64,000 nt of DNA from Methanolobus zinderi (GTDB taxonomy: Archaea > Halobacteriota > Methanosarcinia > Methanosarcinales > Methanosarcinaceae), in contig NZ_CP058215.1 in assembly GCF_013388255.1 (NCBI RefSeq), positions 186,001 through 250,000 on the forward strand, read 5' to 3'. Position numbers and translations under genes: made by a program. Below, piece after piece: positions 1,392 through 13,387 of the stretch. Numbering within the stretch: the stretch's first letter is position 1; each line of letters starts with the position of its first letter. The notes under the pieces were generated by a model, which was given only the letters and a program-made list of their open reading frames with translations, was not told the DNA's origin and ran no database searches.

Positions 1392-2411
1392 CTAATATTT
1401 GTGGCTCTTTGCCATCTCGACCATTGCCTGCAGGTTCTCGGTCGGTGTCTTACTGACAATACCACAGCCTGGTGCCAGCAGGCCTACTCCTGCGTCCAGT
1501 ACCTTCTGTGATTCTTCCTTTACGACTTCCGGGGTCTGGTTCCAGAGGACGTTCACAGGATCAAGGTTACCGACGATCACTGCCTTGTCCACGTTTCCAA
1601 CAGCGGTTGCAACGTCAACATTCTGGTCAACACTGATGGCATCCACACCTGAGGATTCCATGAGTGCAAGTCCCTTGGTGGTATCACCACAGATGTGCAA
1701 CACTACAGGTACGTTGACCTCGTGCATTGCATCAACTATCTTTGCGTGGTATGGCACGACGAACTTCTCATAGAACTCTGCACCAATGAGCTGGGCACTT
1801 GCTGTAGGATCAATGATGACCATTGTGTCGGCACCGTTCTCGACCATCTTCTTTGCATATGCAACACAGAAATCGGTTGTGAACTCCATAAGTGCCAGAC
1901 CGAAGGCCTCGTCTGTGAATATGGCCATGAACCAGTCATCACCATTGAGGTGCTGTGCAAGGGAGAAAGGACCGATCATACTGCCCATGACAGGAAGTTC
2001 GTCACCGTACTTGTCTGCCAGTATCCTGATAGCGTCACAGACAACACCGATCCTTCCGTGATCAAGGCTGTAGCCTTTGAACTTCTCGATATCCTCTGTG
2101 TTACTTATCACATGACCGATAACAGAGGGTTGCTGTTCCATTGTACCGGGTTTGATCTCACAGCCGAAAAACTCAGCCTCTGCGGTAATGTCAAAAGGTA
2201 CACGTACTGCCTCAAAACCTACTACGGTGTGACCTGCTTCTGCAAGTGCTGCCATCTTTTCAGCATCCTCGTTGGCCTCAGGCCAGAAAGCTCCGGAAGC
2301 CTCCATCTGATCAACGGTACCTGTCTGTGTGACGGAGATCGCTGGCATCCTGTCAACAGGCTGTCCTGTAAGTGCACGTGCTAATCTCTCTTTGGGGGTA
2401 TATTCTGCCAT
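1392..2411 (-). CDS. mtbA: Methylcobamide:coenzyme M methyltransferase MtbA
   Basis: This 339-residue cytoplasmic enzyme of the uroporphyrinogen decarboxylase-like family transfers the methyl group from methylated MtmC or MtbC to coenzyme M, the last shared step of methylamine methanogenesis. The zinc and thiol ligands are visible as H239 and C241 (LHICGD) and C316 (APGCGI). AGGAGC precedes the ATG. It lies downstream of mtmCB, separated by two RNA hairpins. Its stop codon is TAG, notable in a pyrrolysine user: readthrough would add about 16 residues before TGA, but 339 residues is already the normal length. MtaA, the methanol paralogue, is the alternative; the methylamine context favours MtbA. 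Confidence 0.93.
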
Positions 2412-2511
2412 AATTTTAAGCTCCTGAAGAAGAGATGGTTGGCAATTGGAAACCAGCCATTCATATCTTGGAGATCATTTTCAGTCTTATCAATACAAAT
2501 GTGTGAAAGTT

Positions 2512-2538
2512 GAGCCAGCGGTGATTAGGCGCCGGCTC
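2512..2538 (-). promoter_or_regulatory. GC-rich hairpin between mtmB and mtbA
   Basis: In the minus-strand RNA GAGCCGGCG pairs with CGCTGGCTC (nine pairs, one a G-U wobble) around a 9-nt loop. It lies 44-70 nt beyond the mtmB stop and about 100 nt before mtbA. No T-run follows. An RNA processing, stabilising or partial-termination element fits. Confidence 0.55.
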
Positions 2539-2547
2539 GTTAGGGAA

Positions 2548-2567
2548 GTGATAAACTATGTTATCAC
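2548..2567 (-). promoter_or_regulatory. Hairpin just downstream of mtmB
   Basis: GTGATAA and TTATCAC form a perfect 7-bp inverted repeat around six bases, 15 nt after the mtmB stop, directly followed by the GC-rich hairpin at 2512-2538. Both are conserved in position as a tandem before mtbA in this transcript. Confidence 0.5.
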
Positions 2568-2581
2568 AGTGATTTGCGGAC

Positions 2582-3958
2582 TTAGAATGTAAGTCCGAAT
2601 TCTTCGAGCTTTTTGCGTGCGCCGTCGTAGACCTTGACGTATTCGTCTGTTGGCGTTACGGTAGCGATGTCGTAACATTCCTGGAAGGTCTTACCCTGTG
2701 GTGCATTTGCATAATTGCCCTCGTAGGAACTTACAAGGAGATCAAGGACCTTGTTGACATCCTCGATATCCATTCCTGCTGTTGCTCTCGCTGCTTCTCC
2801 CATCATCCTGGCTTCCATACCTGTGGTCTTATCCTGTACAACACCCTTTGCAGCTGCCACACCGGAGAGGATCTCACGGCCTGAAGCTGTGTCGGTGATG
2901 GACTGTGCGGATGCTTCGAGCAGGCACATCTCGGTACACGGACCTGCGCATGGATAGTACTGGTTACCTGAGAGCATGTCGGTAAACTCTGAGATTGTTG
3001 CACACGCCCAGCCAGCAATCATAAGGGTCTCACGAGTGTTTGTGGATCCCCAGCGGATGTGGACCGGACCGTCAAGGTGCCAGCTTGCATTGCTCATTAC
3101 AAATGCATTGATATGGGTTGCGATGTTAACTATCGTGGTTTCCTCTATGCCACCGGCATAGCCACCAAAGATAGGCATCTGCTCATCCATGATGATGTCA
3201 CTGTTTGCATTGTAGTGTGCAATAACACTCAGTGCATCAAGATCAATTTTCAGCTCATTTAGTTGTGAAACTTCATGGCTGTCACTGCAGGCCATGCCAC
3301 CGGCACAGTCAGCAGATATATTTCCCTGAGCGGACAGGGAAGTCTCTGGTCCCTATATGGCCATACCAGGCCTGCCGGCCATTGCACATGCATTTTTAAT
3401 GAGTCTTGTTTCTGTCTTGGCTGCAAGTACCTCGTAAGGGCTCTTTGGAATTGGTGGCTTGCCACGGACTGTCATCATGACACCGTTGACAATCGTATCG
3501 ACTTCCTTCTCAAGAGCGTAGCTCATGTGGACAGGCATGAACATGTCCTCGGAAATTGGTGAACCTGTTGGACCTCCCTGGACCACTGGCTTTCTCTTGT
3601 CACCGACACTTCTCTTGTGGACCCTGATAGCCTCTCTGCCGGTACCAAGTGTGAATTCCTTCTGGACGTTGTTGATAGCGTCCCAGATCTCATCTTCTGT
3701 GTACTTTACCACACGGTTGGTGTCGGTACAGTAGATACCGCACTCGAGCAGCATCTCAAAACCTGCCTTGAACAGGTTTTCCATCATGTCCTTGTCGGTT
3801 GGAACAAACTCTCCCTTGAAGTCGAGGTTGTACTTCTGCTTGAGTTCCATTGCCTTCATCGGAATGGTCATAAGGTCCCAGTCATCCTGGGTTGTCTTCT
3901 CTCCCTTCTTTGCCCTTTCATAGAATTCGTAAACATCAAGTGATCTTGAAAATGTCAT
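2582..3958 (-). CDS. mtmB: Monomethylamine:corrinoid methyltransferase MtmB, read through in-frame amber
   Basis: MtmB moves the methyl group of monomethylamine onto the cobalt of MtmC. The reading frame from ATG 3958 is interrupted only by TAG at 3353-3355, codon 202, where pyrrolysine is inserted in this family. Read through, the protein has 458 residues, the known length and Pyl202 position of Methanosarcina MtmB. Residues around the amber are AGRPGMAI-Pyl-GPETSLSAQG. An AGGAGG site precedes the start, and mtmC ends 13 nt upstream, so the two are cotranscribed. An automatic caller would split this into two genes; it is not a pseudogene. Confidence 0.97.
3322..3341 (-). promoter_or_regulatory. 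PYLIS-like hairpin 3' of the mtmB amber codon
   Basis: Starting 11 nt after the TAG, TTCCCTG pairs with CAGGGAA around a 6-nt loop in the mRNA, and outer CAGA/TCTG can extend it. A stem-loop here in mtmB has been called PYLIS; family experience says it aids but is not essential for pyrrolysine insertion. The bases also encode conserved protein, so selection on RNA alone is not shown. Confidence 0.6.
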
Positions 3959-3971
3959 CTTACATGCCTCC

Positions 3972-4628
3972 TTATTTCATAAGGTCAAGTGCCACACGGG
4001 CTGCATCAGCTGCATTCTCTGCTGTTGCGTCTGCCCCGATCTCCTCGATCCATTTATCGGATACTGGTGCTCCACCGAACATTATCTTCACGGAGTCCCT
4101 CAGACCCTCTTCGGAAAGCATTTCGACTGTGTCCTTCTGTCCGAGCATTGATGTTGTCATGAGTGCTGAACCTACGAGCAGGATTTTCTTACCCTTATTG
4201 TTAGCCACTTCTTCTGTGACCTTCTCGTTTGGAACGTCAACTCCCATGTCAACGATCTTGAAACCGTTTGCACCAAGCATGGTTGTCACAAGGCGGTGGC
4301 CGATATCGTGAATGTCTCCTTCCTGTACGTAGGTAATTGCAAGACCTGCGCCCTCGTCAGCTTCTCCCTTTTCTGCTTCCATGATAGGCAGAAGGATCTC
4401 CATTGCGGCGTTCATTGCCTTTGCGGACATCATGATCTGTGGAAGATAGATCTCTGCTGCTTCGAATTTGTCTCCGATTACCTTCATTCCCGGTGAAAGA
4501 CCGTCGTTGATGATCTCAACAGGAGTGAGTCCTGCATCCAGGGCTTCCTGGGTAGCTTCGGCACAACCATTGATGTTCTGATTTACAATGGTGTCCTTGA
4601 GTTTGTCTAAAATTTCCTGCTTTGACAT
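3972..4628 (-). CDS. mtmC: Monomethylamine corrinoid protein MtmC
   Basis: This 218-residue protein carries the corrinoid that accepts methyl from MtmB and gives it to MtbA. An N-terminal helical cap (about 1-90) with the LSPGM and LPQIM signatures is followed by the B12-binding Rossmann domain. H107 in EGDIHDIGH is the lower axial cobalt ligand of the DxHxxG motif. AAGGAG lies before the ATG. It heads the mtmC-mtmB(-mtbA) transcript, with a likely TATA at 4757-4766 and a leader of roughly 100 nt. RamA (19403) should keep its cobalt in the Co(I) state. Confidence 0.95.
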   Translation of the reverse strand: MSKQEILDKLKDTIVNQNINGCAEATQEALDAGLTPVEIINDGLSPGMKVIGDKFEAAEIYLPQIMMSAKAMNAAMEILLPIMEAEKGEADEGAGLAITYVQEGDIHDIGHRLVTTMLGANGFKIVDMGVDVPNEKVTEEVANNKGKKILLVGSALMTTSMLGQKDTVEMLSEEGLRDSVKIMFGGAPVSDKWIEEIGADATAENAADAARVALDLMK

Positions 4629-4756
4629 ATTTTTGTCTCCTTAACGGTCCTTTGCTAGTGTCAAGACGATGAATGACGTTTTTAGATGTTTTTCAAATCT
4701 ATGACTTGGGTCCTTCACTAGTTACAGGCATACGGTAATCTTGAACCTACTTCCTA

Positions 4757-4766
4757 ATATTTAAAA
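4757..4766 (-). promoter_or_regulatory. mtmC: Probable TATA box of mtmC
   Basis: TTTTAAATAT on the minus strand, about 130 bp before the mtmC ATG, is the best TATA match in the gap. It implies a long untranslated leader, usual for methyltransferase operons. The dyad at 4808-4826 lies some 40 bp further upstream. Confidence 0.4.
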
Positions 4767-4807
4767 CTTTTTATTTCTCGGAATTTGCAATTATAATCAT
4801 AGTGAAA

Positions 4808-4826
4808 CATTACAACGTCATTGTAA
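4808..4826. promoter_or_regulatory. Dyad operator ATTACAA-N5-TTGTAAT, copy 1
   Basis: A perfect 7-bp inverted repeat around CGTCA lies between divergent mtmC and the sensor kinase gene. GAAACATT flanks it (from 4804). A near copy with the same flank occurs upstream of mtbC at 12194-12212. Its place upstream of the likely TATA of mtmC suggests an activator site; it could also act on the kinase gene. Confidence 0.65.
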
Positions 4827-4922
4827 TCCAATCACACGTTTATTTTAAAGCAGGAAAATCAAATAGAGATTCATATACCAATTAATCCTGCAGAATTCGA
4901 TATCTGAAAAAAGGCCATTGCA

Positions 4923-6968
4923 ATGAAACTTAAAGATATGCCTTTGAAGGCTAAGTTAATACTGTATATAGTCGTGGGTACACTGCTTGTACTTGTGGCC
5001 AGTACTGCAATGACAATTTCAACCGTGACAAGCCAGGAAGAAGAACTTGCATACAAACAGGCAACAGAAATAGCCAGAAGCTATGCCAACGATTTCAACG
5101 GGGATATGGAAAAGAATCAGGCAATTGCTGAAACCATTGCAGTAAGCATGAGCAGTTATGACTCCATGAGCAGACAAGAAGCAAATGCGATGCTCTATAA
5201 TCTTCTGGAGGAACATCCTCACCTTCTTGGCACATATGTTGCCTATGAACCAAATGCCTTTGACGGCCAGGATGAAATCTATATAAACGCTGCTGGTCAT
5301 GATTCCACAGGAAGGTTCATCCCCTACTGGAACAAGATAGACGGTGATATAGAGCTTGAGCCTCTGCTGGATTATGAAAACCTTGACTACTATCAGGTTC
5401 CGAAGTTAACCAAAAATGAGACACTCACAGAACCTTACTACTATGAGGGTGTGTTCATCGTAAGTTATGTATATCCTATCCTGAATGGCGAGGAATTTGA
5501 AGGGATCGGAGGGGTGGATGTCTCACTGAACTACCTTGACGATGAAATAAGCAATGTAAAAGCATTCGATACTGGCTATGCTTTTATGACAGGAAACACC
5601 GGTATACTTGTCTCACATCCTTTTAACAAGGACTGGATAGGTGAGAAAACACTTTATGATTTCGACATCCCGGAAATATCAAAGGCTGCAGACGATATAA
5701 GAGAGGGTAAAAGCGGTCATGTGGAAACAATAGATCCAAGCACCGGAGAAGAGGTGGTCATGTTCTATGAGCCTATCAGAACAGGGAATTTCTCTTTTAT
5801 ACTGGTGGTTCCCAGAGATGAGATATTTGCCGGTGTGACTGCACTTAGCGACAGGCTTCTACAGATATCCCTTGTATCTGTTATTTTCATGGCTGGAGTT
5901 TCCTATCTTATTGGAATGTCCTTTAGCCGGCCGATCAAAAATATAGTACAGGATTTTAAAAGCATCTCAAACGATGCTATCAGAGGAAAACTAGACTCTA
6001 GGGCAAACACGGACGTAGAAGTTGATTTCAGGGAAATACCCATGGGTCTGAACGAGATACTTGAGACGGTGATAGCACCTATCAGAGATACGATCCGACT
6101 GACCAATGAACTTGCAAACGGAAAGTTAAACGAACGTTCCGATCTGGATGTAAAGGGAGAATTCAAACAACTTGCGGATACCCTGGACAACTTTGCAGCT
6201 TCCCTTGACACCATTATCAGGGACTCCAACGAAGTATTGACAGCGGTCCAGAACAATGATTTCTCAAGAAAAGTAGAAGTATACGGAGAAGGGGATTTCC
6301 GCATCCTGACCGAGGGAATTGAAAAAACAAGAGAAACCCTCTCCAGGATGATGGACGAACGGAAAAAAGTGGAAGAGATACGGAAAAAAGAGATACACCA
6401 CCGTATAAAAAATAATCTGCAGGTGATCTCAAGCCTCCTTGATCTTGAATCTGAGAAATTTGAAAACGAGAATGTTGTCGAAGCCTTCAGAGAAAGCCAG
6501 AACAGAGTAGTATCAATGGCGCTGGTTCATGAGGAACTATACAGATCACAGGACATGGAAAGTATTGATTTCTCGGATTATATCATGAAGCTTGTTAACG
6601 AGCTATCTTACTCCTATATCATGGACAAAGACAAGATCCAGGTTAAAACGGATATTGATAATGTTTTCCTTGATATGGACACCGCCATTCCACTTGGGAT
6701 GATAGTGAATGAACTTGTCTCCAACTCATTCAAACATGCGTTCGAACCGGGCCAGGATGGAGAAATATACGTAAATCTGCATTCAGTTGATGATAAACTG
6801 ACGCTCGAAGTGGGAGATAACGGAGTCGGCTTCCCTGAAGATATAGATTTCAGGGAGACGGATTCACTTGGCCTGCAACTGGTAACCACACTGACAAGCC
6901 AGATAGAAGGTAGCATTGAACTTGAAAATACAGAGGGTACAAATTTCGTTATAATATTAAATCGATGA
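4923..6968 (+). CDS. Membrane sensor histidine kinase with extracellular Cache domain
   Basis: The 681-residue protein has a transmembrane helix at about 10-32, a large outside domain of the dCache type (about 40-300, with YYxVPKLT-like and GGVDVSL motifs), a second helix at about 309-334, a HAMP-like linker, a coiled region, and a HisKA_2-type phosphoacceptor site near H492 (EIHHRIKNNLQ). The HATPase domain follows with an N box near 595 (NELVSNSFKHA) and a G box near 632 (DNGVGFPE). It likely autophosphorylates in response to a small ligand and signals to the receiver protein that overlaps its 3' end. An amine as ligand is inference from the neighbours only. Confidence 0.88.
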   Translation: MKLKDMPLKAKLILYIVVGTLLVLVASTAMTISTVTSQEEELAYKQATEIARSYANDFNGDMEKNQAIAETIAVSMSSYDSMSRQEANAMLYNLLEEHPHLLGTYVAYEPNAFDGQDEIYINAAGHDSTGRFIPYWNKIDGDIELEPLLDYENLDYYQVPKLTKNETLTEPYYYEGVFIVSYVYPILNGEEFEGIGGVDVSLNYLDDEISNVKAFDTGYAFMTGNTGILVSHPFNKDWIGEKTLYDFDIPEISKAADDIREGKSGHVETIDPSTGEEVVMFYEPIRTGNFSFILVVPRDEIFAGVTALSDRLLQISLVSVIFMAGVSYLIGMSFSRPIKNIVQDFKSISNDAIRGKLDSRANTDVEVDFREIPMGLNEILETVIAPIRDTIRLTNELANGKLNERSDLDVKGEFKQLADTLDNFAASLDTIIRDSNEVLTAVQNNDFSRKVEVYGEGDFRILTEGIEKTRETLSRMMDERKKVEEIRKKEIHHRIKNNLQVISSLLDLESEKFENENVVEAFRESQNRVVSMALVHEELYRSQDMESIDFSDYIMKLVNELSYSYIMDKDKIQVKTDIDNVFLDMDTAIPLGMIVNELVSNSFKHAFEPGQDGEIYVNLHSVDDKLTLEVGDNGVGFPEDIDFRETDSLGLQLVTTLTSQIEGSIELENTEGTNFVIILNR

Positions 6969-6985
6969 AGATCACAGGTGAACAT

Positions 6986-7396
6986 ATGGAAGAAACAAAG
7001 ATACTGGTAGTTGAGGATGAAAATATCATCGCTCTTAATATCAAAAAGAAACTAAAAAGCCTGGGTTATGCAGTTCCGGCAATCGCTTCAACAGGCGAAG
7101 AAGCCATAAAGATGACAGAGATCACTTTTCCGGATCTGATCCTCATGGATGTGATGCTGAAAGGGGAGATGGATGGGGTCCAGGCTGTGGAAGAGATACA
7201 CAAGAAATATGATATTCCCGTAATCTACCTGACAGCATTCTCCGATGACGAGGTACTGGAAAGGGCCAAGGTTACCAGACCTTATGGCTACATTGTCAAA
7301 CCATTTAAGATCAATGATCTGCATAGCAATATTGAAATCGCACTTTACAGACATAAAATGGATGACGGGGGAAGAAAAGAGCTTACAGGTTCATAG
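6986..7396 (+). CDS. Single-domain response regulator (receiver only)
   Basis: This is a CheY-like receiver of 136 residues. D55 in LILMDVML is the phosphorylation site; acidic residues in VVEDEN and the Lys of KPF complete the pocket. I start it at ATG 6986, preceded by AGGTGA, rather than the ATG at 6965, which overlaps the kinase and lacks a ribosome site. It has no DNA-binding domain, so output must pass through another protein; the HTH regulator 60 bp downstream is the obvious candidate. Its stop is TAG. Confidence 0.85.
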   Translation: MEETKILVVEDENIIALNIKKKLKSLGYAVPAIASTGEEAIKMTEITFPDLILMDVMLKGEMDGVQAVEEIHKKYDIPVIYLTAFSDDEVLERAKVTRPYGYIVKPFKINDLHSNIEIALYRHKMDDGGRKELTGS

Positions 7397-7458
7397 GATT
7401 TCAAACAGCAAGAAGATAACAGAACTTATAAAATAAACAGGAGTGGCAGGTAATTCCA

Positions 7459-8259
7459 ATGAACAAGTCGTTGATCGATATAATCTTCAATTCAGAAAAA
7501 CGAAAGAATGTCCTGTTACTTCTGGTAGAGGGTCAGAAAAGCCGTGAAGAGATTAAAACAAGTCTCAATGTGACCTCCACGGCCCTTATTCCCCAGATTA
7601 AAAAACTAAAAGAGCATGGACTTGTTATCCAGAACAATGATTATTATATCCTGACCGATATGGGGAGGGTAATGGTTGAGAACATGCTGCCTCTTTTGCA
7701 GGCGGTGGAAGTCTTCGAGGATAACAGCAGTTACTGGCTGAACCGCGACCTGAGCGGTATACCAGGACATCTTCTGAAAAGACTGGGGGAATTGGGGAAT
7801 TATCTGGTTATAGAGCCTGACCTGAACTATCTTTTTGAATTTCCGGAAGAATTTACTGAAAACATCGATAAGTCCGGCTACATTATGGCCTTTAATGCGT
7901 ACTTCCATCCGGAATACCCTGCCCTTTACTCAAAACTTGCCGAAAAAGGTATTGAGTTCTCGCTTGTCCTGAGCAGTTCGGTACACAAGAGAATGCAGAA
8001 CGATTATAAAGAAGATATGCAAAAATTTCTGGATTGTGAAAGCACTGATTTTTCTGTCTCAAATGAAGTATCAGGTCTTGCTACACTTGTTACAACCGAT
8101 CGTTTCCTGTTTCTCTGTTTCTTTGACAAACAGGGACAATACGATCACCGGATTATAATGAGCTTCGATTCCAGGGCTCTCGAGTGGAGCCGGGAATTGT
8201 TCAGCTACTACAAGGATAAGTCAGAAAATATCTGTGATTTAAACTGTAATATAAAATAA
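7459..8259 (+). CDS. Msr/FilR1-type HTH transcriptional regulator
   Basis: The 266-residue protein has an N-terminal winged helix of ArsR type (about 1-75, SREEIKTSLNVTSTALIPQIKKL) and a C-terminal domain of the kind found in methanogenesis regulators Msr and FilR1 (DUF1724). Msr proteins in Methanosarcina control methyltransferase genes. It follows the kinase and receiver on the same strand and faces the amine permease and mtbCB. It is a good candidate for binding the ATTACAA dyad, though nothing in the sequence proves that. A close paralogue lies at 53159. Confidence 0.82.
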   Translation: MNKSLIDIIFNSEKRKNVLLLLVEGQKSREEIKTSLNVTSTALIPQIKKLKEHGLVIQNNDYYILTDMGRVMVENMLPLLQAVEVFEDNSSYWLNRDLSGIPGHLLKRLGELGNYLVIEPDLNYLFEFPEEFTENIDKSGYIMAFNAYFHPEYPALYSKLAEKGIEFSLVLSSSVHKRMQNDYKEDMQKFLDCESTDFSVSNEVSGLATLVTTDRFLFLCFFDKQGQYDHRIIMSFDSRALEWSRELFSYYKDKSENICDLNCNIK

Positions 8260-8311
8260 AAAAATCGTACAGCAAGCAGATTTTTAATGCTTGCTGTCCA
8301 GGTCTCCTTTC

Positions 8312-9799
8312 TTATGCTGTCTGTGGTTCCGATCTTGCCACATGGCTCTCATGCTGTGAATAATACCACATGGGTATGTACAGAGCCAGTACGACTATTC
8401 CTACACCTGTGGAGAACCAGCTCCCTTCTATACTGTTTAGATAGATTATACCGATCAGACAGAGAGGAATGTTGAACAGACCGAACATAAGTGCGACGTT
8501 CTTCCAGCCCTTTGGTGCCTTGAAAGGTCTCTCGAGACCTACAAGGTGCGGGTTCATCTTTGCCTTTACATATGCAAAGAGACTGATACCATTGGCACAA
8601 ACATATCCTATGGCGGATGCTGCAAGGATAGCTGTTGGAGTACCCATTGATATGAGTACCAGGTTGAACAGGCCAATAATTACCATGGCGAATACGGGAG
8701 TTCCATGGCTGTTTACTTTACCGAAAACCTTTGGCAGGTTTCCTTCAACTGCCATTGAGTGCATTGCCCTTGAAGATCCCAGGTATGCAGTCTGTATGAT
8801 GAGCACCATTGCAGCAATGAGCATTACAATAGCGATGGTTGAACCTATATCACCAAGGGATGCCTGTGCAACCGGAAGCATAGGATCGATCGGTGCGTTG
8901 GCGATACCCTCTATACCTAGCACACCGGTAACTGTTGTCTGCACGATTACATATGCAAAGAAACAGATCGCACCGCAGGAGAACAGTGCCTTTGGCACAT
9001 CCGTACCCGGATTCCTGTACTCGGGACCGTATATAGCTGCTGTTTCCCATGCACATGCACTCCATTGAGCCATTGCGAATATACCCAGCAGGATCAGGAC
9101 ACTGTTAAGGTCCCATACCCAGTCTGTTGGCAGCCAGGTGCTGGTGATGTTCGAAAGTACGAAATCCCCTGTGGCATATGGTGCCAGGGCAATTATGATC
9201 AATGGTACAAATGCAAGTGCTGCAAGGATATAACCTACCAGTGCACCACTTGATACACCACGGTAGTTGACAAGTATGAGACCTCCGAATATCACGATTC
9301 CTGCAGCAAGCGATAGCTGATATTCAGTGAATGTATTTGCAAGTGAGGGGAAGAGACTGTGCAGGTAGAAACCCACAAGGATTGCAAAGATAGCAAGTAC
9401 GGGATTCCATGCAAACCAGTAGCTCCATGCACTGAATCCGCCTATAAGCTTACCTCTGTCATACTTTCCTGCGTAGTCAGGTGTTTTGAATACATTCTGT
9501 GCAAATCCGGGAAGACCGGATGCCTTCGGGAAAGTTGTTGCAAGTTCACCGTAAGCCAGATTCTGCATGAAACCCTGGAATACGGAAAGACCCCACACAA
9601 TAATAGCAGCCGACCATAGCCAGCCTGCAAAATATCCTATCGACGGCAGGATCAGCAGAGGCACACCCACAGCGATGGCAAGACCCTGTTTCCAGTCGAT
9701 CGAACGCTCAAGTCCACCAGATTCACCGGACTCACATACCACTTTTGAGCATTGCTCGGCATGCTGCCAGTCAATCCCTGTCTCTTCATTCGAATTCAT
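8312..9799 (-). CDS. Methylamine permease, APC family (MtmP/MtbP/MttP type)
   Basis: A 495-residue integral membrane protein with about 12 hydrophobic segments and the APC layout. A soluble N-terminus of about 38 residues precedes the first helix (LAIAVGVPLLILPSIGY). It is the last gene of the mtbC-mtbB transcript and should import di- or other methylamines. AAGGTG precedes the ATG. Homologues are named MtmP, MtbP or MttP by operon; with mtbB upstream, MtbP is the natural name, but sequence cannot settle the substrate. Confidence 0.85.
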   Translation of the reverse strand: MNSNEETGIDWQHAEQCSKVVCESGESGGLERSIDWKQGLAIAVGVPLLILPSIGYFAGWLWSAAIIVWGLSVFQGFMQNLAYGELATTFPKASGLPGFAQNVFKTPDYAGKYDRGKLIGGFSAWSYWFAWNPVLAIFAILVGFYLHSLFPSLANTFTEYQLSLAAGIVIFGGLILVNYRGVSSGALVGYILAALAFVPLIIIALAPYATGDFVLSNITSTWLPTDWVWDLNSVLILLGIFAMAQWSACAWETAAIYGPEYRNPGTDVPKALFSCGAICFFAYVIVQTTVTGVLGIEGIANAPIDPMLPVAQASLGDIGSTIAIVMLIAAMVLIIQTAYLGSSRAMHSMAVEGNLPKVFGKVNSHGTPVFAMVIIGLFNLVLISMGTPTAILAASAIGYVCANGISLFAYVKAKMNPHLVGLERPFKAPKGWKNVALMFGLFNIPLCLIGIIYLNSIEGSWFSTGVGIVVLALYIPMWYYSQHESHVARSEPQTA

Positions 9800-9829
9800 A
9801 TATTTTCACCTTCGTTTGATAATAATTAC

Positions 9830-9918
9830 TGATACCTGCAGACCTTCCGAAAGAGCGTTAATGAGTTTCATAAATTGGAGGTTATGTTTTCATCATCTGC
9901 GGGAAGTTGCAGGTATCA
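9830..9918 (-). promoter_or_regulatory. Long-range stem in mtbB-permease intergenic RNA
   Basis: In the minus-strand transcript TGATACCTGCA (9918 to 9908) pairs with TGCAGGTATCA (9840 to 9830). CTTCC and GGAAG add five more pairs after a small asymmetric internal loop, enclosing about 53 nt. The stem ends some 30 nt before the permease ATG, so it could protect the mtbCB end, tune permease expression or be a riboswitch-like element. Confidence 0.6.
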
Positions 9919-9962
9919 TACAGCCGCCGTACAGACACAGCCTGCATGACGGCAATTAACGC

Positions 9963-11369
9963 TTATTTGCTCACCTGACCTCTGAACTTCTCACATGAGT
10001 TGATCTTTATATCCAGAAGCTTCTCGATGTTCATCTTTGCAGCAATTCCCTTGGGAGCTCCTGCAACTGAAGTGATTACACCAATACCAAGATCCTCTCT
10101 CAATTCCCTCATCACATATTCATCACTTAGATCAAGTGTGGAAACACCGAGCTTCTTTGCAACGTAATCCTTTGCGTCACCGACGCGCATGCTCTTTGCC
10201 AGTTCCATTCTTGCAACAAGGTCACCTGCTGCTCTTATTCCGCTCATTCCGGAGGTCATTATGTGGGAGATCGGCATACCCATCGGGTCGCCGACCCCTA
10301 TCTATATGCCGTCCACGCCAGCAATTTCGACCATCGCCTTGCTGGCTCTTGATACAGCATCAACCGTCGGGGTCTCGAGCATCGGGATACCGCCTACACC
10401 CATACCCATGTTCACATGGCACGGGATTGTTGAATCCTTAACAGCCTGTTTGATGAAGGTAACAGCTCTTCCAAGGTTCCATGCTGAAGATTTGCTGGTG
10501 TTGGTGTTTACAACAGGTCCGAAAACATTGGCTCCTGCCTTTGCAACAAGTGCAGCCTGCTGGTGTGGCCAGAGACCTGCAAGCACTGTACCGTCGTATT
10601 CAAGCTCACCGTGCATTCCAAGCAGAAGTTCTCCTGCCATACCTGCTTCGATATAGATATCAGGGAACTGCTTTCTCAGTGATTCGATCGCATGCAGGGA
10701 GGCATACATGTCACCGTCACCTGCAGCACCGATCGTATCGAAGTTGACACCATCGGAACCGGATGCCATCATCCTCTGCATGATCCATACAATGTCCCTT
10801 GTAAGATGCTTTGCAGAGTGCTCCATGGACTCTCTTGCCTCATCGATCTTGAATGCCTTCATAAGGTCACCGGGGTTCTCAAATGGTCCGTCTGGTGTAT
10901 AGTAGAGACCCATGTTTGGCATTGCACCGTAGAGCAGAGGAACGATCATGTTCTGCTGGCAGACTTCCATTGTCTGCATTTCCTGTGCGATCACAGGTTT
11001 TGCAGGCTTGTAACTGTAGTCGATGTGACCGAGTTCCATTGTGTCAGCACCGAATGCACGCTCGTGCATCATTGCACCAACAAGCCTGCTTGCCGGGATA
11101 CCGACACCGCTGTTACCCTGGTCACCATCGATCCTGATGGTTCCGATGTCGTGGGTTACGGGAACTTCCATACCCTGCTCTACACCTACCATCCTGGAAG
11201 GCATGGTGATAATTTCCACGAGCTTGTCGATCTCATCTTCACTGAGATCAGGAATGTCACCAAGGTCTGCAGCATCTGCCATACCTTCTTTCAGGTCAGC
11301 TACGATCTGCTCCTTTGTCATGAAGAGACGCTTTCCGTCTCCCATTCTTAACTTATATTCTGTTGCCAC
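9963..11369 (-). CDS. mtbB: Dimethylamine:corrinoid methyltransferase MtbB, read through in-frame amber
   Basis: MtbB transfers methyl from dimethylamine to MtbC. TAG at 10302-10304 interrupts an otherwise open frame at codon 356, the pyrrolysine site of Methanosarcina MtbB (local sequence EIAGVDGI[13 protein letters not shown]). The full product has 468 residues. I place the start at GTG 11369, giving [12 protein letters not shown] like known MtbB, with AGGTGA five bases upstream; a GTG at 11378 would put the ribosome site inside the gene. mtbC ends 14 nt upstream. The part after the amber begins in the wrong place if called alone, so it must be joined. Confidence 0.96.
10285..10297 (-). promoter_or_regulatory. 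Small hairpin next to mtbB amber codon
   Basis: GGGTC-GGC-GACCC forms a tight stem four bases 3' of the TAG. It differs from the mtmB element in size and spacing. The bases also encode the conserved IGVGDP stretch, so it may be coincidental. Confidence 0.3.
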
Positions 11370-11383
11370 AACTTTCACCTCAT

Positions 11384-12028
11384 TTAAAGAAGCAGTTCCT
11401 TTGCCTTTGTGACAGCTTCACTGGCATTCTCTGCGTAGCAGTCAGCACCGATCTTGTTTGCCCAGGCTTCTGTTGCAGGAGCACCGCCAACCATGACCTT
11501 TACACCGTCTCTCATGCCCTGTTCCTTGAGCATTTCAATGACATCCTTCTGGCCCGGCAGTGTGGTTGTCATGAGTGCAGACATGCCGATCATATTTGCA
11601 CTGGTTTCCTTTGCCTTGTCAATGAAATCCTGCAAGGGCACATCTCTGCCGATATCGTGAACCTCAAATCCTGAAGATTGCAGCATTGTGGAAACGATGG
11701 ACTTACCGATATCGTGTACATCACCCTCGACAGTACCGTTTACGATAATACCCAGCTTCTTACTTGCAGCATCCTTTGGCATGTCTTTTTCCAGTAAAGC
11801 CACACCGGCTTCCATTGCACCTGCTGCCATCATCACATGTGGCAGGAATAACTTGCCCCTCTCAAAGAGAACACCCACTTCATTCATTCCGGCTGCAAGA
11901 CCTTTCTCTATGATCTCAGCAGGCGGAATACCTTCGTCCCTTGCCTTTTCTACGGTTGCTATAACAGCATCCTTTTTGCAGGAAACAATGGCATCAGAGA
12001 GTTCTTTAAACATTTCTTCATTGCTCAT
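11384..12028 (-). CDS. mtbC: Dimethylamine corrinoid protein MtbC
   Basis: A 214-residue B12 protein with the helical cap and the axial His motif EGDVHDIG (H105). It receives methyl from MtbB and passes it to MtbA. I choose ATG 12028 ([10 protein letters not shown]), six bases after GAGGTG; the GTG nine bases earlier is part of that ribosome site. It heads the mtbC-mtbB-permease transcript. A TATA-like GATATATAC lies at about 12113-12122 and the shared dyad 80 bp beyond. Confidence 0.93.
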
Positions 12029-12112: not shown

Positions 12113-12122
12113 GTATATATCA
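12113..12122 (-). promoter_or_regulatory. mtbC: Probable TATA box of mtbC
   Basis: ATATATAC on the minus strand, 85-95 bp before the mtbC ATG. It implies a leader of about 60 nt. Confidence 0.4.
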
Positions 12123-12193
12123 TAAACTCAAAGCAATGTGTCTACTGCTCTTGAATTTATCAATGAGAAATAAATGTTTCGAGGCTCTTTTAT

Positions 12194-12212
12194 CATTATA
12201 ACGACGTTGTAA
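12194..12212. promoter_or_regulatory. Dyad operator, copy 2 (upstream of mtbC)
   Basis: Read on the minus strand this is GAAACATTACAACGTC followed by GTTATAATG, matching the site at 4804-4827 in 22 of 24 bases. The arms are ATTACAA and TTATAAT around CGTCG. It lies about 75 bp upstream of the mtbC TATA-like element. Confidence 0.65.
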
Positions 12213-12317
12213 TGTTTCGCTGGTATTGACCAGAAATTTAGATCGTGATCTAGGATCTGCCAGCAAATGCATCCAAAGGGCCAAAATATCCCGATACGAT
12301 ATGGTATTTTATGATCT

Positions 12318-12965
12318 TTACTTCTGCAGGAAAAGAGACTTTATCTTTGCAACGGCTTCAACAGCATTTTTTGCATAACAGTCTGCACCTATTTTTTCAG
12401 CCCACTCCATGCTTGCAGCAGCACCGCCTATCATGACCTTTACACTATCACGCAGGTCCTGTTCCATGAGCATCTCGATAAGTTCTTTCTGACGGGACAG
12501 TGAAATGGTGGTAAGGGCTGAAATGCAAAGCATATCTGCATGAGTTTCCTTTACCTTGTCAATGAAGTCCTGAAGAGGAACATCCCTTCCAAGGTCATAT
12601 ACCTCGAATCCGGATATTCGCAACATAGAGGAAACAATAATTTTACCGATGTCATGCACGTCACCTTCGACAGTACCTATGACAATGATACCAAGTTTTT
12701 CATTCTCTACTTCCTGCAGCTCTTTCTCAAGCACACTAATACCGGCTTCCATGGCATCGCTTGCAAGTACCAGGTGCGGCAGGAACAGCTTACCACTTTC
12801 GAACAGGACTCCCACTTCATCCATCCCACGGATAATACCTTTTTCGATTATCACCTCGGGAGGGATGCCCTCATGAAATGCTTTTTCCACAGTTGATTTA
12901 ACAGAATCCTTTTTACATGATACAACAGCATTTGAGATATCTTTGAATATTTCTTCTTTAACCAT
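12318..12965 (-). CDS. Solo corrinoid protein, MtbC paralogue
   Basis: This 215-residue relative of MtbC keeps the cap and the axial His ([13 protein letters not shown]104), so it should bind B12. No methyltransferase partner is next to it: mtbCB starts a new unit 290 bp downstream and pylS lies divergently upstream. ATG 12965 follows AGGTG; the in-frame ATG at 12974 lacks a site. It could be a second acceptor for MtbB, serve a methyltransferase elsewhere, or sense methylation state. It differs from MtbC in the stretch ISALTTISLSRQKEL. Confidence 0.85.
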   Translation of the reverse strand: MVKEEIFKDISNAVVSCKKDSVKSTVEKAFHEGIPPEVIIEKGIIRGMDEVGVLFESGKLFLPHLVLASDAMEAGISVLEKELQEVENEKLGIIVIGTVEGDVHDIGKIIVSSMLRISGFEVYDLGRDVPLQDFIDKVKETHADMLCISALTTISLSRQKELIEMLMEQDLRDSVKVMIGGAAASMEWAEKIGADCYAKNAVEAVAKIKSLFLQK

Positions 12966-13387
12966 GTATAACACCTGATAGCATCAAGAAAATATCATGG
13001 ATTTAAAAATGGTTCCCCTGTCCAGTAGGTAGTACTCAATAATTAAAGGGTGTTTGGTAAGGAGAAATAAAAATACATATATCGCAACTAAACACAGAAC
13101 TCCATTCACATTTATTAACAGAGCCGGTGGTTGCTTAGATATCTCTGTTATGTGTATGATTTAGATTGCAGACAGATAAGTATTTATACCAGATAAAAAA
13201 GGCATTTTGCAAAAACTATAAATATCCAACATTGCGGAAATATATATATATGCCGATTAGCAGATTCTTATGTGAATTAGATACCGAGCTTTCAGGAAAC
13301 CAATTAATCAGGTTGTATATTTAAGACCTGCTAATTCAAAAATCAAGCTATCAACAACATGTAACAGATTCAAAGGAAGGAAATCAT
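12966..13387. other. Promoter and leader region of the pyl operon
   Basis: These 422 AT-rich bases separate the divergent corrinoid and pyl genes. Plus-strand TATA candidates are ACTATAAATAT (13215-13225) and TATATATATA (13241-13250). A foldable element lies at 13274-13337. I looked on both strands for a tRNA-Pyl gene, which precedes pylS in Methanosarcina, and found none. Confidence 0.6.
13274..13337 (+). promoter_or_regulatory. Foldable element in pyl leader RNA
   Basis: GAATTAG (13274-13280) pairs with CTAATTC (13331-13337), closing 50 nt that contain a CAGGT/ACCTG hairpin and a small TTTC/GAAA one. A 7-bp closing stem with an inner arm recalls a tRNA acceptor and T arm, but no anticodon arm or T-loop can be drawn, so I do not call it a tRNA. 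It lies 50 nt before the short TAG-containing ORF. Confidence 0.45.

Follow-up and report, generated by a model that had tools for sequence, protein, structure and literature searches.

A conserved 19-bp palindrome in Methanolobus as the probable operator of an isozyme-specific methylamine methyltransferase regulon

Introduction

Methanogens possess several methylamine methyltransferase sets that are almost identical, which raises the question of how one set is chosen over another. Among the closest described systems are the Msr regulators of Methanosarcina (MsrA/B, MsrC, MsrD/E, MsrF and MsrG; HTH plus DUF1724), which control single methyltransferase isozymes (PMC11218639). One Msr regulator or pair serves each isozyme, its gene lies beside the target operon, and the systems known to be controlled are those for methanol and methylsulfides. 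For the kinase MA4377 of M. acetivorans, preliminary data speak against phosphotransfer to the neighboring Msr proteins (PMC11784639). A second related system is FilI/FilR1/FilR2 of Methanosaeta harundinacea, in which a FilR1_middle regulator is linked to a kinase and one partner is receiver-only; FilR1, a receiver-HTH fusion acting on acetoclastic genes, binds the promoter of its own gene as well as the kinase operon promoter (PMC3991700). No operator sequence for Msr/FilR1_middle methyltransferase regulators was described in the openly accessible literature that we searched, and the FilR1 study gave no palindromic site. For TrmBL1/Tgr, Ptr2 and TFB-RF1, placement upstream of the TATA box goes with activation (PMC4158304).

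Here we analyzed a 64-kb window of the Methanolobus zinderi genome (the whole stretch, positions 186001-250000 of a genome that is one 2.70-Mb contig), which encodes at 7459 a regulator with the same winged helix plus FilR1_middle/DUF1724 architecture as the Msr proteins and for which we propose the same class of job. Unlike the msr genes, this gene shares its operon with kinase and receiver genes, and the operons concerned are those for dimethylamine and monomethylamine. One partner is receiver-only, as in the Fil system; here, however, the receiver is a separate protein (at 6965), and without a fused receiver domain the 7459 protein is not FilR1 proper.

Results

The genes of the block were annotated as follows.

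2582..3958, minus strand: mtmB, monomethylamine methyltransferase with an in-frame TAG; frame open with TAG read through
3972..4628, minus strand: mtmC, corrinoid protein divergent from the kinase operon (TIGR02370, 268.8 bits, cut-off 215)
4923..6968, plus strand: sensor histidine kinase (Pfam dCache_1, HAMP, HisKA_2, HATPase_c)
6965..7396, plus strand: receiver-only response regulator with TAG read as stop (PF00072; no DNA-binding domain)
7459..8259, plus strand: winged-helix regulator of FilR1_middle/Msr type, the proposed operator binder (PF08350 5.5e-36, PF25213 1.3e-10)
8312..9799, minus strand: permease of the mtbCB operon, APC-type; the closest NCBIfam model is a TMAO permease, below cut-off
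9963..11378, minus strand: mtbB, dimethylamine methyltransferase with an in-frame TAG; frame open with TAG read through, named by its order beside MtbC, start codon uncertain
11384..12028, minus strand: mtbC, dimethylamine corrinoid protein, HTH-linked isozyme (NCBIfam MtbC equivalog, 388 bits, cut-off 350)

Just upstream of mtbC lies a diverged mtbC-like corrinoid gene (12318-12974) that scores below the MtbC cut-off and above the general corrinoid cut-off and has no adjacent partner methyltransferase.

An earlier note on this DNA had reported a dyad shared upstream of mtmC and mtbC, with the HTH gene at 7459 between its copies, and had read it as a regulon site. The 24-mer at 4804-4827 (plus strand) was present exactly as described, and the coordinates confirmed the place of the HTH gene between the two sites. 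The minus-strand partner is real, but it lies 3 bp from where it had been put: the shared 24-mer, GAAACATTACAACGTC[A/G]TT[G/A]TAAT, matches at 22 of 24 bases at 12195-12218, while only 12/24 match at 12192-12215. No 24-base alignment of the two intergenic regions scored higher, and after dinucleotide shuffling (300 rounds) the best match averaged 16.5 and never exceeded 19.

The dyad proved larger than that note had it. In the Methanolobus consensus, its core is a 9-1-9 palindrome of 19 bp, ATTACAACG-N-CGTTGTAAT, with weaker symmetric flanks (TGTAAG...CTTACA), and the core carries 27.3 bits in a position matrix. We built this matrix from 24 sites of other Methanolobus species, excluding the window species and a near relative; because that palindrome also served to pick the training sites, the matrix is not independent of the motif idea, though it is independent of the genome studied here. 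Run over the 64-kb window, it found only two sites, at 34.0 and 23.4 bits, the next best scoring 6.3. The three operator positions are:

4790..4808, no strand: degenerate adjacent operator position, mtmC-proximal and 19 bp away from copy 1 (8 mismatches, score -9.9)
4809..4827, no strand: operator copy 1, ATTACAACGTCATTGTAAT, in the mtmC/kinase intergenic region (GAAAC-flanked copy 4804-4827)
12195..12213, no strand: operator copy 2, minus-strand sequence ATTACAACGTCGTTATAAT, upstream of mtbC (GAAAC-flanked copy 12195-12218)

Copy 2 is the top-scoring site of the window, whereas copy 1, with 1 mismatch to the consensus core, is the second. The mtmC-proximal tandem position is a good or even the best copy in several relatives and has decayed in this genome.

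Rarity in the whole genome was judged by pattern searches. ATTAYAA-N5-TTRTAAT with 0 mismatches occurs at three places in 2.70 Mb, two of which are the window sites, which bore out the expectation of few matches elsewhere. The third exact match (G000:C1:1119636) overlaps the 3' end of a large ORF, scores 4.4 bits and was rejected as an operator. In two relatives (G045 and G055) several additional look-alike sites, ATTATAAYGCCATTRTAAT, were seen near unrelated genes (L175:5712, L176:5914, L177:6872, L180:6080, L181:6276).

The same site recurs across the genus. We searched 27 Methanolobus genomes and collected the loci around the regulator from 22 Methanolobus and five sister-genus genomes; these relatives are not independent, and several are draft assemblies with contigs ending inside the block (e.g., G040 and G050). 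Exact copies of the core were found in at least 7 of the 27 genomes, and in most genomes with the gene block the site has 0-2 mismatches and keeps its position. In nearly all loci it lies upstream of the histidine kinase gene, the first of the kinase-receiver-HTH operon (the kinase-gene copies are degraded in one genome, G051), and a second site lies about 166-178 bp upstream of the predicted start of the HTH-linked mtbC. The earlier note had taken absence before the same genes in relatives as evidence against its reading; instead, relatives carry the dyad at fixed promoter positions before the linked genes and seldom anywhere else, as expected of a conserved regulon operator. In Methanosarcina and other genera, we did not find the same palindrome between the HTH gene and mtbC; outside Methanolobus and its sister genus, HTH orthologs about 50% identical adjoin mtbC without it. 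In four genomes, strong operators also occupy the region between pylS and a second permease gene (L148:12113, L149:1725, L150:5965, L156:7468), some with a weak tandem copy.

Alignment of the upstream regions revealed that the operators stand at set distances from predicted TATA elements, which in the window are:

4840..4849, plus strand: predicted TATA box of the kinase-receiver-HTH operon, TTATTTTAAA (conserved TATTWTAAA)
12114..12130, minus strand: predicted extended TATA of mtbC, TGAGTTTATGATATATA, 0 mismatches and the single match in the genome
12131..12160, minus strand: conserved middle element, AAATTCAAGAGCAGTAGACACATT, kept between operator and TATA at the mtbC/mtmC promoters of the genus

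At mtbC, and at mtmC in most species, the gap from the operator to the extended TATA is 63-64 bp, or 81-83 bp where the tandem neighbor is the better copy (64+19). The gap from the best operator to the kinase TATA box (TATTTTAAA; TATTWTAAA) is 12-13 or 31-32 bp in the Methanolobus loci where this box was recognized. The two operator positions are 19 bp apart, which is both the length of one operator and the difference between the alternative gaps. A second conserved stretch, ATTCA-N4-CARTAGACAYATT, lies between operator and TATA at the mtbC and mtmC promoters genus-wide and may be the site of another factor; it is also discernible on the second-permease side. In the window, mtbC has the full composite promoter, with a gap of exactly 64 bp from the operator to the TATA.

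With at most 1 mismatch allowed, each genome contains 0-2 copies of the extended TATA, most of them at these promoters. We searched 111 Methanosarcinaceae-level genomes with the composite pattern ATTACAA-N5-TTGTAAT-N67-GTTTATGATATATA, which gave 25 matches against 0 for the reversed control. This result, the shuffle test, the matrix derived from other genomes and the fixed spacing leave practically no room for a chance match or dispersed repeat, a reading that we regard as refuted for the two window sites even though, at 3 mismatches, background matches are as frequent as in the reversed control and G045 and G055 carry the extra look-alikes. The same composite promoter, with the 64-bp gap and the TATA, was also observed before a stand-alone corrinoid gene beside a conserved gene (probably cysS), where the operator center differs (ATTACAAGCACGCTGTAAT type; L283:15194-15293, L284:5959-6058, L285:8202-8301, L286:7901-8000, L287:2127-2226). 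In another genus (G002, L288:7875-7974), a composite promoter precedes pylS-pylB-pylC-pylD-ramA, and the adjoining HTH protein is about 61% identical to that of the window.

These positions also bear on how the dyad could act. As an inverted repeat it could in principle work as RNA, in a leader hairpin or terminator, and long leaders are frequent on methanogen methyltransferase mRNAs (PMC5378194); however, the dyad lies upstream of the conserved, predicted TATA in both promoters and so would not be transcribed from it, and the same site serves either orientation relative to the gene, making an RNA role highly improbable. A DNA operator could instead be occupied in the absence of methylamines by a regulator that is mainly a repressor and shuts off its own operon together with mtbC. 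Regulators of the TrmB and Msr groups can act in either direction (PMC4158304; PMC11218639), but all copies lie upstream of the TATA, and at mtbC/mtmC they are at least 64 bp away, where a simple block of TBP/TFB or polymerase is unlikely. We consider predominant repression unlikely and favor activation, because every operator copy is upstream of the TATA.

The earlier note had assigned copy 1 to mtmC. This assignment is the weaker one here: genus-wide the site tracks the TATA of the kinase operon, and it is kept at the kinase gene in loci where mtmC is no neighbor (L146, L152, L158, L160, L162), so that we rejected mtmC as its primary owner in this genome. Indeed, copy 1 is 12 bp upstream of the kinase TATA, which is the canonical arrangement for this operon, whereas the mtmC side in the window has neither the genus-shared extended TATA nor the middle element. 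The TATA-like element that had been placed 40-80 bp downstream of each site holds for mtbC (64 bp, to 12114-12130); for mtmC there is only a weak AT-rich candidate about 41 bp away. With the matching TATA box gone, it is doubtful that copy 1 controls mtmC in this genome; at a guess, a weak TATA at about 4757-4767 could still let mtmC respond. The composite promoter is present at mtmC in most other species, even where 500-640 bp separate mtmC from the kinase gene. The upstream regions of mtmC and mtbC are thus otherwise unlike in this genome, as the earlier note had it, but not in most of the genus, where a composite promoter common to both is frequent.

The genome contains a second methylamine cluster (G000:C1, about 172-178 kb) with mtmC, an mtbC that is 95% identical and a third corrinoid gene. 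Between the two sets, mtmC, mtmB, mtbC, mtbB and mtbA share 87-94% DNA identity, and the upstream regions are unrelated (window 1392-12028 compared with L163). While 15/17 HTH-linked mtbC promoters score at least 14 bits, none of 55 second-cluster mttC/mtbC/mtmC promoters from 19 loci has the operator, the best having 5 mismatches and 0.7 bits. The matches that had been predicted at mttC and other mtm/mtb copies are therefore absent, and an operator of all methylamine operons was rejected: the palindrome is not a general methylamine site but marks one isozyme set. The highly similar second set serves as a built-in negative control. No related palindrome was found at a third mtmC cluster, which is linked to twin HTH paralogs; direct repeats of the ACAATTCACAAG type were seen there instead (L144 upstream of 2005, L155 upstream of 19568, L173 upstream of 5721).

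A domain search of the three proteins of the operon identified the 7459 protein as the only recognizable DNA-binding protein of the conserved block. It has 266 aa, with PF25213 (HVO_A0261-type winged helix) at 6-85 and PF08350 (FilR1_middle) at 126-253, both above cut-off, and by this domain content it is a member of the FilR1_middle/Msr group. It shares 98% identity with a protein of Methanolobus sp. UBA118 and 72-79% with further proteins of this genus, and its gene adjoins the mtbCB-permease operon in Methanolobus and several other genera. In a structure model of modest confidence (overall pLDDT 71.7), the wHTH has pLDDT 80-89 and the C-terminal domain looks PLD-like; the top Foldseek match of this model in the PDB was TrmBL2 (E 5e-10, TM about 0.4), with human PLD-like FAM83/BJ-TSA-9 among the further matches. 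PF01978, the TrmB DNA-binding domain, gave no match in the protein at E 0.001, so that by sequence it is not of the TrmB family, though the plan of the operator is TrmB-like and the modeled fold may be so too.

Several observations connect this protein to the site. The recognition-helix segment STALIPQIKKLKEHG is invariant in Methanolobus orthologs, near-identical in the sister genus, where the sites are weaker, and replaced by SKAMMPQIKIL in genera that lack the site; this change follows the phylogeny and is thus only suggestive. The composite promoter, with paralogous promoters excluded, was present in 17/22 genomes, against 0/5 genomes that have neither an HTH ortholog nor the linked mtbC (p 0.003, kinship ignored), a co-occurrence that cannot tell the HTH from another factor because the HTH gene is gained and lost with the whole block.

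The dyad might be a true operator with another reader, for example another FilR1_middle paralog, while the adjacent HTH protein binds elsewhere. About 20 paralogous regulators are encoded in the genome, and one relative, G056 (L169:1925-2540), lacks the HTH gene, the permease and the linked mtbCB between the receiver and pylS but keeps the kinase, the receiver and a 2-mismatch operator; an HTH remnant was sought in G056 and not found. A near-identical palindrome with other flanks, AAATTATAAYG-N-CGTTRTAATTTCA, also lies near a paralog before an mfnDF-like operon. Against another reader, the sites with TAAG/CTTA flanks cluster with the operon of this HTH and its neighbors, and the recognition segment is constant or nearly so where the site occurs and altered where it is absent. 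We judge a different reader to be improbable, if a little less so than predominant repression, and retain the 7459 protein as the candidate binder.

The AAATTATAAYG-N-CGTTRTAATTTCA palindrome was observed upstream of an MfnD-like/MfnF-like (methanofuran synthesis) operon at L194:3460, L195:3177, L197:3047 and L199:3125, with a FilR1_middle-like paralog on its opposite side in 3/4 loci, and it is possibly a sister operator with a different reader.

Discussion

Together, these data suggest that the dyad is probably the autoregulated operator of an isozyme-specific regulon, bound by the FilR1_middle/Msr-type protein encoded at 7459, which likely acts as an activator. The site, its conservation, its fixed promoter geometry and its absence at paralogous promoters come directly from the computation. 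We infer the identity of the binding protein, activation over repression, the link to the kinase and the existence of a signal. In the proposed mechanism, a dimer of the winged-helix protein would bind each ATTACAACG-N-CGTTGTAAT, and the tandem 19-bp units suggest that two dimers could sit side by side. At its own operon, the regulator would bind close to the TATA on its upstream side, at a gap of 13 bp (32 bp via the second tandem position), which would result in autoregulation, as shown for FilR1 (PMC3991700). At the mtbCB-permease operon, and at mtmC in most relatives, it would be bound exactly 64 (or 83) bp upstream of the special TATA and most likely activate transcription of the HTH-linked methylamine methyltransferase set, whereas the parallel mttC/mtbC/mtmC set would lie outside its control. 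The kinase and receiver presumably relay a signal to the regulator.

More speculatively, the genus may use a modular archaeal promoter, in which the 19-bp operator would be an exchangeable module: its central five bases, together with the flanks, would specify the cognate FilR1_middle paralog, and it would be kept exactly 64 (or 64+19) bp upstream of ATTCA-N4-CARTAGACAYATT and the extended TATA. Which isozyme is chosen would then depend on the identity of the operator, the rest of this enhancer-like promoter staying constant, and a second protein might occupy the middle element. We put this idea forward tentatively, as a possibility that we would not yet bet on.

For the choice among near-identical methyltransferase sets, this analysis supplies a precise site, a candidate regulator, a proposed self-control loop, a list of target operons and an exact promoter geometry. 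A distance of 64/83 bp to the TATA is long for an archaeal activator and could be informative on how such proteins reach the TBP/TFB machinery.

Two further archaeal systems offer a comparison at the level of the DNA site. In the TrmB family (TrmBL1/Tgr), the Thermococcales glycolytic motif TATCAC-N5-GTGATA has the same half-site/N5/half-site plan as ATTACAA-N5-TTGTAAT, and TrmB sites upstream of BRE/TATA go with activation; the half-site sequence differs, however, and the operators described here are very remote from the TATA (64/83 bp) and come in tandem 19-bp units. HdrR of Methanosarcina barkeri, a winged-helix protein that activates a methanogenesis operon, has a palindromic promoter site mapped by footprinting; its target (hdrBCA) is different. 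The novelty here lies in the operator and the layout of the promoter; the regulator family is known, and the system as a whole is not of a new kind.
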